DNA from: a bacterium | GTDB lineage: Bacteria > Zhuqueibacterota > QNDG01 > JAFGCO01 | NCBI GenBank assembly: GCA_016932575.1 | Contig: JAFGCO010000027.1 | Location: 1 to 61,403 of the forward strand | DNA length: 61,403 bases | Direction of reading: 5' to 3' | Shown: positions 758 through 7,221 of the stretch, piece after piece | How the letters are laid out: each line of letters begins with the position of its first letter | How positions within the stretch are numbered: the first letter of the stretch is position 1 | Notes under the pieces: model-generated | Database searches by the model: none | Seen by the model: the letters and a program-made list of their open reading frames with translations, nothing else | Told to the model about the DNA's origin: nothing | Made by a program: the position numbers and the translations under genes

Positions 758-1354
758 TCATACCCCATATATCTTCCTCACATAATCCCCCATCTCGCGA
801 AACGCCCTGCCCCGGTGGCTGATTTTATTCTTTTCTTCAAGAGACATTTCGGCAAATGTTTTATCACACTGCGGCATGTAAAACAGCGGATCGTAACCGA
901 ATCCCTGATTTCCGCTTGGGGCGTCAAGAATCGTTCCTTCACATATGCCTTCGATACAATGTTCATGGTCCTGATCCACAAGACAGGCCACGCACCGAAA
1001 CCGGGCTTTTCGGTTTTCTTTTGGAACACCGATTAAAAGCCGTATTAATTTGACATTATTATCCGAATAAGTCGCATTTTCACCGGCAAACCGGCTGGAA
1101 AAAACACCGGGTGCGCCCTCCAGGAAATCCACTTCCAAACCTGAATCATCTGCTATCGAGGGCAGACCAGTGGCTTTAAAAGCAGAACGCGCCTTTTTTA
1201 AAGCGTTGGCACGCAGCGAGTCACCATCCTCTATGACATCAGGAGCCTGCGGATACTTGTGGATACCCACAAGTTCCGCATGATCCAGCTGCATTAATTT
1301 TTCAATTTCGGTAATTTTATCTGAATTTCGGGTTGCCAATACGATTTGCTTCAT
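758..1354 (-). CDS. rdgB: XTP/dITP diphosphatase (RdgB/HAM1 family)
   Basis: This 198-residue protein is a cytoplasmic nucleotide-pool sanitising enzyme that hydrolyses non-canonical purine triphosphates (dITP, XTP) to monophosphate and pyrophosphate. The family landmarks are all present: the N-terminal ATRNSDKITEI (7-17), the acidic E.G.S..NA..KA helix (42-55), ADDSGLEVD (68-76) with the catalytic Asp, APGVFSSRFAG (81-91), GFGYDPLF (about 151-158) and the C-terminal KNKISHRGRA. Length is normal for the family. It is the last gene of the leftward block, 29 nt after the small zinc-ribbon gene, so co-transcription is likely. No clear terminator follows. Confidence 0.95.
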   Translation of the reverse strand: MKQIVLATRNSDKITEIEKLMQLDHAELVGIHKYPQAPDVIEDGDSLRANALKKARSAFKATGLPSIADDSGLEVDFLEGAPGVFSSRFAGENATYSDNNVKLIRLLIGVPKENRKARFRCVACLVDQDHEHCIEGICEGTILDAPSGNQGFGYDPLFYMPQCDKTFAEMSLEEKNKISHRGRAFREMGDYVRKIYGV

Positions 1355-1699: not shown

Positions 1700-2929
1700 T
1701 TATTCATTCAAATTTCTCTTTGCCAGGCGAAATCGTTCCAGTGTTAATTCAAAAAAGAGCAGCATGGTTAAGAGTCCGTTTTTTTCTCGTTCTTGAAATT
1801 GGCCAATACGTTTGCTTTCAATGCCAATACAGCCCCATGCGTCTTGATGCCCGAGTGGAACCGCCAGTAAAGAATGAAAACCATGTTTGGTATCTTCTCC
1901 TTCAAAATATCTGGGCCGCACATAGCTGCCCTTCTGCATATCCTCAACCACCAAAGGAGAATTTCGCTTAATTACCCATCCAATCAGACCTTCATCCAAT
2001 GGAAACCGTGTTCCCCTGTCCAAATGATCAATCTGTCCGAATATCTGTCTGATTTCTCCCTCCTCCCGATCCTTATAACAAAGCACACAACGATCAAATG
2101 TAAACAATCGCAGAACAAATTGAACAAACACATTGAATGCCTGCATCTCATCTTCTGCTTTTCGAAGCTCCTGTTCCATTTCCAGTTGTGTTTGCCATAA
2201 TGTTTCCTGAATTTCTTTTCTCCATGCACGGTGATACACGGACATGACCTGACAAATCACCTGACCACAATGGTTGAGAAGTTCAAGGTCATCTTCACTG
2301 AAATGTTCCTGTGCTTCGCTTCCCGCTGCCAGAACACCGGTTATCTTTTTATCAATCACCAATGGAACACCTGCAAAACTTCGGATTTCATGATCATCAA
2401 TACCCGATAAGCAGGTGCCAATTGGCAGGTTATTTTCCCGAACAGATCCGTTTTGCTGAATCACATAATCCACCAGGCTGCCTTCCTGCACAAGAATCCT
2501 CGGATAAGAACCGCTGGATTCACTCTCCGCGATCTGAAGCTCAAGGGTTTCACCCTTACGCAGGTAAAGACCGACAGCCGAAGCCGCTGTGGCATTTCGG
2601 ACAATCGAAATGAATGTTTGATAGAACCAATGAAATGCCTGCCCAAAACCTTTCCATGAAGGTTCACGCATATCTTCAAAAGGAGCATCTTTTTCCGGGA
2701 TTTCCTGTTCAGGCTGAGTACGCTTCCGCTGAGGATTCGTAAAAAACATATTGAACCAGAAAAAATACAATATGAAAAAAACCGTGATAAATAATCCGGT
2801 TTTCAATCCGAATCCTGCCCATGTCTTGGCCGAAACCGGCATAAAAAATCCCACCAGAATCAGCAGAAGGACAAGCATATACATCCAAAGTGCCTGGTCT
2901 TTATTACCAGGAAATCTCAAACCAGCCAC
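1700..2929 (-). CDS. Membrane-anchored tandem GAF-domain protein
   Basis: A 409-residue protein with two hydrophobic helices (about 14-32 and 44-64), a short acidic/basic linker, and two GAF-type sensory domains (about 100-235 and 265-395). The first contains RILVQEGSLVDYV and FAGVPLVIDKKITGVLAAGS; the second contains FPLDEGLIGWVIKRN and LLAVPLGHQDAWGCIGIES, the usual GAF strands. No kinase, cyclase or HTH output domain is fused, so it may act as a sensory partner of another protein. The start is uncertain: GTG at 2929 is almost on top of the AAAGGAG site, while TTG at 2920 has better spacing. It follows the pseudo-HtrA gene by 66 nt and probably belongs to the sigma-factor gene set. Confidence 0.8.
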   Translation of the reverse strand: MAGLRFPGNKDQALWMYMLVLLLILVGFFMPVSAKTWAGFGLKTGLFITVFFILYFFWFNMFFTNPQRKRTQPEQEIPEKDAPFEDMREPSWKGFGQAFHWFYQTFISIVRNATAASAVGLYLRKGETLELQIAESESSGSYPRILVQEGSLVDYVIQQNGSVRENNLPIGTCLSGIDDHEIRSFAGVPLVIDKKITGVLAAGSEAQEHFSEDDLELLNHCGQVICQVMSVYHRAWRKEIQETLWQTQLEMEQELRKAEDEMQAFNVFVQFVLRLFTFDRCVLCYKDREEGEIRQIFGQIDHLDRGTRFPLDEGLIGWVIKRNSPLVVEDMQKGSYVRPRYFEGEDTKHGFHSLLAVPLGHQDAWGCIGIESKRIGQFQEREKNGLLTMLLFFELTLERFRLAKRNLNE

Positions 2930-2995: not shown

Positions 2996-3973
2996 TTATT
3001 TTTTTATCGGCATGCATCCAATCTCAACCACGCAAGACTTCACCACATCGTTACGACGAACATCAAACATGATCTGCTCTTTCGGGGACCTGGTTTTTAT
3101 ATGCTGGGCCAGTTCATTGGCATTTAAAATGCTTTGACCATCTATTGCAAGAATCGTGTCTCCCTTGCATATTGAAGCGCGATCGGCCGGGCTGTCCGGG
3201 ATGACATTCACCACACGAACTCCCTGATTCTCTTTATGGGTTATATCAACGACACACAATCCGATCCAACCAGACTGATTATGAGCAAAGGCAAAAAAGC
3301 GTTGCATCACATGATCGATGGTTGTGATGGGGACACCCACCCCCACAGGATCCTGATACGATTCAATTTTCCGCCGGCCGGCCAGCATGCCAACCAATGC
3401 TCCTTCCCGGTTAAAAAGAGGACCGCCTGTATTGCCCGGCGGCACTGAGCCATGGAACAGAAAAAACCCGTTTTCCTGAAAATCGATAATGTGTCCAAGT
3501 GTTACTGAAGGAAAAACCCCCAATGAATTTCCCAGCAGGATGATACAATCTTGTGGCTTGATATCGCTGCAATGAGAAGAGGGAGGACAGTACGGAAGCG
3601 CATCATTGATTTTTAAAAGGGCCACTTGAGAAACGGGATCGCAATTCAAAACCCAGGCCGGTGTTTTACGACCATTAAAAAAAGTGACTTCAATACTGTC
3701 TCCGCCATGAATAACACTTTGCCTTGTTACAATCAGCCCCCCTTTGTCATCAATCCAGCCGGATCCGATACGACTCCAAATTTCATCATCTTGAAAAATA
3801 AATGTACGGATACTCACTGCTATGGAACGTGCTTTTTTCAAACGCTCGGCCATGAAACAGTTTTCTTCATTATTTTGCTGGATCGCCGATTGAGCGTAAA
3901 TAATCGAAGCGATAAAAATTCCAACAAGAATTCCACCCATTCGATTCTGCTTTTTTTGACGATATCCGATCAT
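2996..3973 (-). CDS. HtrA/Deg-like PDZ protein lacking the catalytic triad (pseudo-protease)
   Basis: 325 residues: an N-terminal membrane anchor (about 12-30), a trypsin-fold domain (about 50-230) and one PDZ domain (about 235-320, with VIPDSPADRASICKGDTILAIDG). The trypsin domain aligns by eye to DegP/DegS, but each catalytic position is changed. The His site of the T.NHV motif reads VTRQSV (Ser86), the Asp site of DP.SDLALL reads DPVSQVALL (Gln116), and the Ser site of PGNSGG reads PGNTGG (Thr182). His89 is nearby but misplaced. I infer a non-proteolytic sensor or chaperone. The gene starts 2 nt after the anti-sigma stop with no strong ribosome site of its own, which suggests translational coupling. 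An active protease using unusual residues cannot be excluded. Confidence 0.85.
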   Translation of the reverse strand: MIGYRQKKQNRMGGILVGIFIASIIYAQSAIQQNNEENCFMAERLKKARSIAVSIRTFIFQDDEIWSRIGSGWIDDKGGLIVTRQSVIHGGDSIEVTFFNGRKTPAWVLNCDPVSQVALLKINDALPYCPPSSHCSDIKPQDCIILLGNSLGVFPSVTLGHIIDFQENGFFLFHGSVPPGNTGGPLFNREGALVGMLAGRRKIESYQDPVGVGVPITTIDHVMQRFFAFAHNQSGWIGLCVVDITHKENQGVRVVNVIPDSPADRASICKGDTILAIDGQSILNANELAQHIKTRSPKEQIMFDVRRNDVVKSCVVEIGCMPIKK

Positions 3974-3975
3974 TG

Positions 3976-4533
3976 TTAAAATCGCACTGGTTGATATAAA
4001 TCTTGAATAGGAGTAAAAGATTCAGTATCAAATAATGAATCAACAACAGCAATGGGAGATGAATTGGATGGATATTGTACAGAAGGCGGATAAGAATCCA
4101 AATCATCAATGACATATTGAATACGACTTACATCGCCTTCATCTGTAATCGTTAAACCCGCTTCAGCAGTGATATCAGGCAAATATGGATGCGAAAACTG
4201 CCGATAAATGAAAAATGAAACGATCAGAATCAATGAGGCCATAACAATAGCAGGAATCCAAAGACGCGTTGGAGAAGGAGAAGACACACCGAATCCTCTT
4301 TTGTGCGCCAGTTCATGACGAATCCTTTCCCTCAGAACAATCTGAAAAGACGCTGGTGCTTTTACAGGTTTCATGTTATGCAATTCCTGCTTGAGGGAAT
4401 GTATCCGATGATAAAATTCGGCGCACACCGCACATGATTGAAGATGCTGCTGTACTTCCTCCTTCACATCATCTTCTAACTCGCCATCCAGAAAATTGAA
4501 AATTTTATCTTTGAACCGTTCGCAAGGAATCAT
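3976..4533 (-). CDS. Anti-sigma factor with zinc-binding (zf-HC2) domain
   Basis: 185 residues from the ATG at 4533, chosen over an upstream GTG because a GGAG site lies 8 nt before it. The N-terminus is a ZAS-type zinc domain: Cys near residue 4, then HLQSCAVC giving the H-x3-C-x2-C signature of zinc-binding anti-sigma factors. One transmembrane helix follows (about LWIPAIVMASLILIVSFFIY), then a short extracytoplasmic tail. Known family members bind and inhibit an ECF sigma factor at the inner membrane. The adjacent upstream gene encodes such a sigma factor and the adjacent downstream gene a membrane HtrA-like protein, which fits an envelope-stress circuit. Confidence 0.88.
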   Translation of the reverse strand: MIPCERFKDKIFNFLDGELEDDVKEEVQQHLQSCAVCAEFYHRIHSLKQELHNMKPVKAPASFQIVLRERIRHELAHKRGFGVSSPSPTRLWIPAIVMASLILIVSFFIYRQFSHPYLPDITAEAGLTITDEGDVSRIQYVIDDLDSYPPSVQYPSNSSPIAVVDSLFDTESFTPIQDLYQPVRF

Positions 4534-4608
4534 AGGCAAAACTCCAAAAAAGGACACTTTTCAATTGACTTCTATTCAATACAAATACACAGCTCATTCT
4601 TTTACGGT

Positions 4609-5202
4609 TCAATTCTCTTCCAAAAGATGTTTTAACTTTTTTTGTAATCTTAACCGGCCCCGATTAACCCTCGATTTCACGGTTCCAATGGGAATCCCCA
4701 GTATTTGACTGATTTCTTCATAAGAAAATTCTTGTACATCACGCAAAACAACCACTTCCTTGAATTTCACAGGCAATGCATCGATTTCCTTCTGAATAAT
4801 CTGGCCGTGCATCTCACCGTCCACAATCCCCTCGGGAGTCTGTGTTTCTTCGTCTGGTAATTCAAAATCTTTATCATCAAATCCAATCTGACTTAAAGAT
4901 AAAAGCCGGCGGCGGCGGCGACGGCGTAATTCGGTTTTTGCTAAATTACTTGCAATGGTATAAATCCATGTTGAAAATTTGGCAATATTTCTGTATAAAT
5001 GTTTGTTTCGGTAAACCCTCAAGAATGTTTCCTGAACAACATCCTCTGCATCAATTCGATCACCCAGAAAATGATAAACAAAATTAATCAGTGGATCTTT
5101 ATACCGCTCAACAATAATATTAAATGCTTTCTCATCACCCTGCTGAAAACGGGCGATCAGTTCCTCATCCGCGATCCTTTTATTGTTCGATGTATCTACC
5201 AC
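4609..5202 (-). CDS. ECF RNA polymerase sigma factor (RpoE-like)
   Basis: 197 residues with sigma region 2 (about 13-85, with DAEDVVQETFLRVYRN and FSTWIYTIASNLAKTE) and region 4 (about 135-190, with FSYEEISQILGIPIGTVKSRVNRGR). The two domains and the lack of regions 1 and 3 identify a group 4 (ECF) sigma factor that directs polymerase to stress-responsive promoters. A run of eight basic residues (LRRRRRRRLL) sits just after region 2.4. It starts at GTG with AGAGG 6 nt upstream. It lies 75 nt before the anti-sigma gene and 36 nt after holA, so it may also be transcribed with housekeeping genes. Confidence 0.93.
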   Translation of the reverse strand: MVDTSNNKRIADEELIARFQQGDEKAFNIIVERYKDPLINFVYHFLGDRIDAEDVVQETFLRVYRNKHLYRNIAKFSTWIYTIASNLAKTELRRRRRRRLLSLSQIGFDDKDFELPDEETQTPEGIVDGEMHGQIIQKEIDALPVKFKEVVVLRDVQEFSYEEISQILGIPIGTVKSRVNRGRLRLQKKLKHLLEEN

Positions 5203-5238: not shown

Positions 5239-6258
5239 TTATTTTATAAAAAAATGATGTTTTCTTTGGGTCAGATCATAAACAACCAGTGTCATCGCCA
5301 TTATGGGATCGAGCAGACCTGTTTTAACAGATTTATCCGCTTGATGCAGGGCTTCCAATGCATATTGAGCCTCATCCAGTGTAAATTTCTCTGCTTGTTG
5401 GGAAAAGAGTCTGAGAAAATAAGGTCGAAGTCCTAAATATTTCGCTGTCTGATCCTGAGAAATCTGTCGCTCTCTGCATAATTTCAAACGGATGAGTATC
5501 AATATACGGCGTGTTAAATCCATGATTAATCCAACAGGAGATTGTCTGGTATCCATCAAATGCGATAAAATTCTCAAAGCCTCGGTTGTATTACGCCGCG
5601 CAATGGCATCCGTGAATTCCCAGGTATTATATTCCCGCGACATACCCACCACGGCCAGGACATCATCCCGATTCAATTTTTGCTTTCCCCAGGCAAAAGT
5701 GATCAATTTTTCGAGTTCATGATGTAAATTCCATAAGGATGTGCCCACATGCTGCACCAATAATTTTGCAGCTTCTTCTTCGATTGCAATCTGGTTTTGC
5801 CGCATCCGGGATAAAATCCATTCAACAGCCTGATTATCATAAAGTGGTTTAAATTCAATCCACACACTATGCTCCGTCAGCGCGCTCCAGAATTTTTTAC
5901 GGCGATCTGCCCCGTTTGATACAAGAATAAGGCAGGTAGATTCCAGAGGAGAGCAGACATAATTAAGCAACCGATTTCGGTCCGGCGTGGATAACTGCTG
6001 AATATCCTTGAAAATAACAACTCGCCTTTCAGCCATCATCGGAAACGAGGAAGCAATGGCAATCAGGGCTTCGACATCAGTACCAGAACCACTGAATGAA
6101 TCATAATTAAAATCCCTGGTTGCTGGATCTAACGCGCAATTGATCAGAGATCGAATTAACCGATCAACAGGATACGGCTCTTCACCATAGAAAAAATAAA
6201 CTGAAGCAATTTTACCTGCTTCAATCTCTTTCAGAATGGAGTGAAAATCATTTAACAT
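5239..6258 (-). CDS. holA: DNA polymerase III subunit delta
   Basis: 339 residues, normal length for HolA, the clamp-loader subunit that opens the beta sliding clamp. The N-terminal AAA+-like fold is recognisable from VYFFYGEEPYPVDRLI near residue 20, followed by NYDSFSG and the stretch MMAERRVVIFKDIQQLS, all typical of the delta family. The C-terminal helical collar domain (about 215-335) contains AIARRNTTEALRILSHLMDT. Its neighbours are uppP upstream and the sigma factor downstream, 36 nt away. No clear ribosome site precedes the ATG. Confidence 0.9.
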   Translation of the reverse strand: MLNDFHSILKEIEAGKIASVYFFYGEEPYPVDRLIRSLINCALDPATRDFNYDSFSGSGTDVEALIAIASSFPMMAERRVVIFKDIQQLSTPDRNRLLNYVCSPLESTCLILVSNGADRRKKFWSALTEHSVWIEFKPLYDNQAVEWILSRMRQNQIAIEEEAAKLLVQHVGTSLWNLHHELEKLITFAWGKQKLNRDDVLAVVGMSREYNTWEFTDAIARRNTTEALRILSHLMDTRQSPVGLIMDLTRRILILIRLKLCRERQISQDQTAKYLGLRPYFLRLFSQQAEKFTLDEAQYALEALHQADKSVKTGLLDPIMAMTLVVYDLTQRKHHFFIK

Positions 6259-6417: not shown

Positions 6418-7221
6418 CTAAAAAAGAATCCATGCAACACCAGCCAGTATGAAAGTATAAAACGCAAACATCCATAATCGGCCGTGACGTATAATCCATA
6501 CTAAAAGAGAAAGAAATAAATAACTGAATCCAAATGCAGAAAGAAAGGCCAGTATCAGGAAAAACCAGTTTGCCTGTATATAATGAATACTCGAAATATC
6601 TGACAGTTTAAATACAACCGCGCCCAAAACCGCCGGAATAAACAGCATAAAACTGTAGTAAGCCGCCTCTTCCCGCTTGATACCAAACAAGAGCATGACA
6701 GATATCGTGGTGCCTGAACGGGAAATGCCCGGAAGAATGGCCAGTGCCTGGAACAAACCAACGATAATGGCAAAATAAAAGGCTTTTTCAGATACGCGCC
6801 GGTTTTCTTTTGGTCCGAAGAACCGGACCGAAAGCAAAATCAGGGTCGTTACCAAAAAAGTTATCTGCAGTACTGAAGGAGACTCGAATCCGGATTCGAT
6901 TGGATTTTTAAAAATAAGATACCCTGCGAAAGTGACAACAGATGAAATAATGATATAAATCAGAAACCGACTTTGTTGTTTATCAGGCTGCCGTTGCTTG
7001 ATTTCGATGTAAGCTCCACCAAAGGTTTGCCTGATTTTTGAAAAATAAAAACAGCAAACGGCAACCAGGCTGCCCCCATGCATAAGAATATCATAAATCA
7101 GGGGAATCTCGCTATAATGTAAAAGGCCTTTAATAAAAAGCAGATGCCCCGAGGAAGAAATAGGTAGAAATTCTGTTGCCGCCTGAATAAATGAAAGCAG
7201 TAATCCCTGAAATAAATTCAT
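6418..7221 (-). CDS. uppP: Undecaprenyl-diphosphatase UppP (BacA family)
   Basis: 267 residues, polytopic membrane protein. UppP dephosphorylates undecaprenyl pyrophosphate to recycle the lipid carrier for peptidoglycan and polysaccharide synthesis and confers bacitracin tolerance. Both signatures are present: the N-terminal TEFLPISSSGHL (about 17-28) and the second-half PGISRSGTTIS. The usual QG before TEF is QAA here, a minor change. The start ATG at 7221 has GAAGTGAA just upstream. It is separated from rpmA by a terminator, so it has its own promoter or depends on readthrough. Confidence 0.95.
   Translation of the reverse strand: MNLFQGLLLSFIQAATEFLPISSSGHLLFIKGLLHYSEIPLIYDILMHGGSLVAVCCFYFSKIRQTFGGAYIEIKQRQPDKQQSRFLIYIIISSVVTFAGYLIFKNPIESGFESPSVLQITFLVTTLILLSVRFFGPKENRRVSEKAFYFAIIVGLFQALAILPGISRSGTTISVMLLFGIKREEAAYYSFMLFIPAVLGAVVFKLSDISSIHYIQANWFFLILAFLSAFGFSYLFLSLLVWIIRHGRLWMFAFYTFILAGVAWILF

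Follow-up and report, generated by a model that had tools for sequence, protein, structure and literature searches.

We report an operon of the phylum KSB1/Calditrichota in which the genes for an ECF sigma factor and its membrane anti-sigma factor are followed by a gene for a DegS/HtrA homologue that has no catalytic triad. In the DegS/RseA system, the PDZ domain of DegS senses misfolded outer-membrane proteins (OMPs) and turns on the protease. We propose, giving the whole proposal slightly better than an even chance, that the dead homologue described here binds and shields the anti-sigma factor, and that OMP tails compete with this factor for it. The window is the whole stretch of DNA that was analyzed, 61,403 nucleotides long; its source genome is 4.41 Mb and 94.5% complete.

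Operon architecture and the HtrA-like protein

The genes considered here lie on the minus strand of the window in the order uppP, holA, ECF sigma, anti-sigma, HtrA-like, GAF-domain gene, and rdgB, at the following positions.

6418-7221, minus strand: uppP (named from a reading of the sequence)
5239-6258, minus strand: holA
4609-5202, minus strand: ECF sigma factor, RpoE/SigW-like (Pfam Sigma70_r2, 4.5e-20; Sigma70_r4_2, 1.3e-15)
3976-4557, minus strand: membrane anti-sigma factor, zf-HC2, with one TM (Pfam zf-HC2, 9.3e-8)
2996-3973, minus strand: HtrA/DegS-like pseudoprotease, 325 aa, with a signal-peptide-like N-terminus (Pfam, phmmer, alignment, and AlphaFold2 model)
1700-2929, minus strand: GAF-domain membrane protein
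758-1354, minus strand: rdgB (named from a reading of the sequence)

An earlier note, made from the letters of this DNA alone, had read the sigma, anti-sigma, and HtrA-like ORFs with a 2-nt gap between the last two. All three were recovered on the minus strand at the coordinates above, and the spacing holds, with the anti-sigma stop codon ending at 3976 and the HtrA-like ATG at 3973. Translation of the anti-sigma factor probably begins at the ATG at 4533 and not at the GTG at 4557, because most same-order relatives begin with M-x-P-C. Within the phylum, sigma orthologues are 56 to 80% identical and stand in the same gene order. The order holA-sigma-anti-sigma-pseudoprotease was found in nearly all loci examined, commonly with rdgB downstream, and in most relatives of the order the membrane-anchored GAF-domain protein (1700-2929 in the window) is encoded downstream of the pseudoprotease. 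An autoregulatory promoter between holA and the sigma gene was considered and rejected, as the AAC-spacer motifs were scattered and formed no consistent pattern.

The HtrA-like protein contains an HtrA/Deg chymotrypsin-like domain and a PDZ domain, with Pfam matches to Trypsin_2 (1.6e-16) and PDZ_2 (4.8e-12), and phmmer aligned it with DegP, AlgW, HhoA, and DegS across both domains. Its AlphaFold2 model (pLDDT 82.8, pTM 0.73) matches the protease domain of DegS (2qf3_C) with a Z score of 25.9 and an rmsd of 2.1 Å over 190 residues. These results bear out the retention of the trypsin fold and PDZ domain that had been read from the translation. The features of the protein were located as follows.

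3329-3820, minus strand: trypsin-fold domain, about residues 52-215, with a shortened L3 segment (alignment and model)
3716-3718, minus strand: S86, at the triad His position (alignment with 16 HtrA controls)
3626-3628, minus strand: Q116, at the triad Asp position (alignment with 16 HtrA controls)
3428-3430, minus strand: T182, at the triad Ser position (alignment with 16 HtrA controls)
3023-3277, minus strand: PDZ domain, about residues 233-317 (Pfam PDZ_2, 4.8e-12)
3257-3268, minus strand: PDZ peptide-end loop W236-I-G-L239 (conservation; the AlgW equivalents touch the peptide end)

The His-Asp-Ser catalytic triad is absent. The alignment to DegS, DegP, and HhoA and the fold model, both suggested earlier as checks, gave a DegS fold. 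Aligned with 16 HtrA proteases of the window's order, the protein has S86, Q116, and T182 at the triad positions, the same three residues that the earlier note had named. The 16 proteases have H in 16/16, D or E in 16/16, and S in 16/16 at these positions. Glu stands at the Asp position (H-E-S) in 8/16 of these controls. Two DegP-like proteins encoded elsewhere in the window's genome are also H-E-S (L001, G000:C20:123181-123618, and L002, G000:C16:87491-87925).

At the His position, 59 aligned homologues have Ser in 51 cases and His in none; the Asp position holds Gly in 42 and Asp in 3, and the Ser position holds Asn in 19, Ala in 12, Ile in 7, Ser in 6, Val in 6, and other residues in the remainder. 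These counts, like the others given here, come from related sequences and are not independent events. Continued protease activity with an unusual catalytic set is highly improbable. One triad position does keep Ser in 6/59 or Asp in 3/59, but His is found in no member, and in 53/59 the nucleophile has given way to N, A, I, V, C, T, G, or L. Catalytic rescue by His89, named earlier as a way in which the reading could fail, was rejected, as this residue, three positions past the His column, is not conserved among relatives. Across seven same-order genomes, Ser86 and the loops G148-N-S-x-G and P179-G-N-x-G-x-P are all invariant, so the site is constrained and not decaying.

The L3 sensor segment spans 19 to 25 aa in the pseudoproteases, whereas in active HtrAs it spans 26 to 39 aa. 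In DegS and AlgW, L3 forms the link between the active site and the PDZ domain (PMC8545111), so its shortening suggests that the relay has gone together with the catalytic residues, and the pseudoproteases appear to be without both. The earlier description of the protein as non-proteolytic is strongly supported by the short L3 and by a triad loss that is fixed in about 70 homologues.

The peptide-binding part of the PDZ domain has been kept. A G-x-G-type peptide-end loop is present in this C-terminal domain, with W236 in 65/70 sequences, G238 in 70/70, and hydrophobic residues at 237 and 239, giving the pattern W-[ILV]-G-[VIL]. In AlgW, the end of the bound peptide is touched by the corresponding residues W281, L282, and V284 (PMC8545111). 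At the other end of the protein, the N-terminus resembles a cleavable signal peptide in relatives, as judged by sequence (e.g., AAAQ and ATAQ).

Distribution and age of the pseudoprotease

The pseudoprotease profile has matches in 61/82 genomes of the phylum (E ≤ 1e-45). A tree of 70 pseudoproteases, all with a lost triad, and 20 active HtrAs, built by a quick method with the triad columns removed, requires a single change on one branch (SH-aLRT 99) to separate the two groups. Five pseudoproteases from outside the phylum (G217, G354, G182, G138, and G215; four families) fall on the pseudoprotease side of this branch. All five of their loci adjoin an anti-sigma gene and four of the five also adjoin a sigma gene; one locus (L218) is truncated. 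The operon is also present on contig L067 (Zod_Metabat.95), which is labelled Acidobacteria; its place in the tree is within the window's order, and the label may therefore be wrong.

A survey of homologues beside ECF sigma genes, which had been suggested with the earlier note, found the triad lost throughout the operon homologues. A recent mutation or an assembly artefact was therefore rejected: the loss is common to all homologues in the operon, and no close homologue with an intact triad came to light, His being absent in 59/59. The earlier attribution of a lost triad to this copy thus stands as regards the loss, which is a feature of the family and not of this copy.

Pseudoproteases outside the window's order and outside the phylum (L011-L023 and L217-L222) are extended at the C-terminus by about 80 residues, the last part of which is a predicted coiled coil. 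This extension is missing from the pseudoproteases of the window's order.

The protein could act as an adaptor or activator that presents the anti-sigma tail to an active HtrA, or mixes oligomers with it, and so promotes cleavage in the way that MamO activates MamE. There is precedent, as MamO is a degenerate HtrA and activates MamE-dependent proteolysis (PMC4794232). The two DegP-like H-E-S proteins of the window's genome would be in keeping with such a role, and the coiled coil found outside the window's order suits oligomerization. However, the operon encodes no active HtrA, pseudoproteases of the window's order have no coiled coil, and no result points to mixed oligomers, and we regard this explanation as unlikely.

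The anti-sigma tail and its possible readers

The anti-sigma factor combines a zf-HC2 domain (H38-x3-C42-x2-C45), one TM, and a periplasmic tail of about 75 residues, with the following features.

4195-4260, minus strand: predicted TM helix (WIPAIVMASLILIVSFFIY...; hydrophobic stretch in the translation)
4102-4119, minus strand: tail motif QYVIDD, about 28 residues past the TM (motif enrichment in tails)
3979-3987, minus strand: C-terminus Val-Arg-Phe-COOH, candidate PDZ ligand (aromatic-end conservation)

Anti-sigma tails are poorly conserved in sequence overall. Those of the phylum that adjoin a pseudoprotease nevertheless all end in an aromatic residue (65/65; Phe in 55 and Tyr in 10), and 46 of the 65 have Val or Ile at position -3. 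With one sequence per genus (49), the relative entropy reaches 4.8 bits at -1 and 1.9 bits at -3 and stays between 0.2 and 0.9 bits elsewhere. PDZ domains chiefly read positions 0 and -2, which correspond to -1 and -3 here (PMC8545111). As controls, aromatic C-termini were found in 9/245 neighbouring genes and in 1/24 unlinked zf-HC2 proteins of the same genomes. On these comparisons, the aromatic end of the anti-sigma factor is a predicted PDZ-ligand pattern. The sole unlinked zf-HC2 protein with an aromatic tail (L144, G006:C78:15516-15620) ends in NKIRF. Some anti-sigma factors of the KSB1/Caldithrix-like family f12 (L070 and L085) have lost the zinc-binding His/Cys but are otherwise retained, the aromatic C-terminus included. 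Outside the phylum, one anti-sigma factor (L220) ends in TFSP, not in F/Y. A search for the anti-sigma factor in viral contigs found none.

A second element of the tails is the motif Y-[VPITS]-[ILVMDN]-[DEQMLSKR], present in 37/49 genera against 6.1 expected from shuffles (best of 300 shuffles, 14), an exploratory count in that the regular expression was composed after the tails had been viewed.

HtrA proteins can act as chaperones. The pseudoprotease might accordingly be a periplasmic chaperone or a sensor of some other ligand, placed in the operon through sigma control and making no contact with the anti-sigma factor; in E. coli, sigma E has DegP among its targets (PMC8103513). Among the gene products tested, however, only the anti-sigma C-terminus is uniformly aromatic, which points to a specific partner and leaves this explanation with a remote chance.

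Contrasting operons bear on who reads the tail. In two genomes of family f3 (G007 and G002; loci L226 and L227), the pseudoprotease is absent between the anti-sigma and GAF genes, and a profile search found no other copy in either genome. Their anti-sigma factors end in VSY and VNY, keeping the aromatic end, and the YVIDD motif was not seen in their tails. The absence of the pseudoprotease is probably one loss event. This pattern suggests that the YVIDD motif is tied to the pseudoprotease, and, as the aromatic end is kept where the pseudoprotease is absent, it also suggests that this end has, or can have, another reader.

The tail may thus be a degradation tag for another PDZ protein, such as an active HtrA, S41/Prc, or RseP, with the pseudoprotease acting otherwise, for example via YVIDD only. 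In keeping with this, RseP (TIGR00054 over cut-off) was found in 10/10 genomes, the window's genome included, and S41 (Prc-like) proteases were found in 10/10 genomes searched. However, such a tag would leave unexplained both the conserved PDZ pocket and its fixed pairing with aromatic tails, and the two exceptional genomes are one family that may represent a single loss; we consider this account improbable.

In G316 (L223) the operon is more conventional: the sigma and anti-sigma genes are followed by one for an RseB-like protein and one for an HtrA whose triad is intact, and the anti-sigma factor ends in HFLQ. A similar order was read in G222 (L232), where the middle protein scores below the RseB profile and the anti-sigma factor ends in SEGY.

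Proposed mechanism and comparison with known systems

That the pseudoprotease binds the anti-sigma tail directly is supported, though only indirectly, by the universal aromatic C-terminus, the retained PDZ pocket, and the fixed operon. We infer from these sequence features the tail binding, the shielding, and the competition by OMP tails that make up the proposal. The PDZ domain most likely grips the free anti-sigma C-terminus (Val-Arg-Phe here), and the inactive protease cleft may hold the QYVIDD motif of the tail in the manner of a substrate that is not cut. In DegP, substrates are bound by the PDZ domain and the cleft alike (PMC11642142). An AlphaFold2 model of locus L065, read through its single in-frame TAG so that the anti-sigma tail and the pseudoprotease were joined, left the tail disordered (pLDDT about 25), in a construct whose C-terminus was not free and whose tail was without an alignment.

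In the resting cell, the pseudoprotease would shield the anti-sigma factor from the true site-1 protease, a job like that of RseB, which shields RseA (PMC8545111). Under stress, periplasmic OMPs with aromatic C-termini would compete for the PDZ domain and expose the tail. Such competitors are plausible, as F, Y, or W is the last residue of 14/29 TonB-dependent receptor barrels sampled from five same-order genomes, a resemblance to the anti-sigma tail; the remaining barrels have non-aromatic ends. The exposed anti-sigma factor would then be cut by an active HtrA or an S41 protease, followed by RseP, and the sigma factor would be freed. Proteolytic release of the sigma factor by another protease is likely because RseP and S41 proteases are present in all ten genomes and HtrAs with intact triads occur in the order. 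The window itself has the ECF sigma factor and membrane zinc-type anti-sigma factor of RpoE/RseA-type pathways. In the window's genome (94.5% complete) no match to the RseB family PF03888 was found, and relatives gave only weak matches.

A broader version holds that the dead HtrA has replaced both the DegS sensor and the RseB shield, that an OMP-like anti-sigma tail fills its PDZ domain until misfolded OMPs displace it, and that this pathway spans the phylum and several outside families. We offer this version tentatively and with some doubt.

HtrA-family pseudoproteases (MamO, PMC4794232) and HtrA genes beside sigma and anti-sigma genes (PMC10027907) are already known. In the open-access literature searched, no description was found of a triad-less HtrA fixed beside an ECF sigma factor and an anti-sigma factor with a PDZ-type C-terminus. 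The mycobacterial sigE/rseA-htrA-tatB locus resembles the present operon in the adjacency of sigma, anti-sigma, and htrA genes. No description of aromatic-tail pairing was found for that locus, whose HtrA has been described as essential and as a protease with an amidase as its target (PMC10027907).

MamO, too, is an HtrA-family protein whose active site has degenerated and whose role is non-catalytic. It differs in its setting, which is metal binding and the MamE activation pathway, whereas the pseudoprotease here has an ECF/anti-sigma partner. It also has a non-glycine residue at position 193, whereas the equivalent G180 here (P-G-N-T-G) is Gly and invariant in the order.

In its proposed role, the pseudoprotease resembles RseB/MucB, a non-catalytic periplasmic protein that is encoded directly after the anti-sigma factor and, by binding its tail, guards it against site-1 cleavage. 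The folds are unrelated, however, and the conventional operon of L223 has an RseB-like protein and an active HtrA together.

The likeness to DegS and AlgW extends to the fold, a trypsin domain with one PDZ domain, to the link with an ECF sigma factor and a membrane anti-sigma factor, and to the end-binding loop of the PDZ domain. Unlike DegS and AlgW, the pseudoprotease has no triad, has a short L3, and may have a cleaved signal peptide in place of a membrane anchor. Its candidate PDZ ligand is the C-terminus of the anti-sigma factor itself and not just the tail of an OMP or MucE. Should this binding prove real, the PDZ sensor, and not the cut, would be the conserved core of the switch, and a simple competition mechanism would operate in KSB1/Calditrichota, whose stress responses are little studied. 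An aromatic anti-sigma C-terminus together with a Ser-for-His HtrA provides a marker for locating the system elsewhere. The same DegS fold has lost its protease across a phylum and is still paired with the same kind of sigma and anti-sigma factors.
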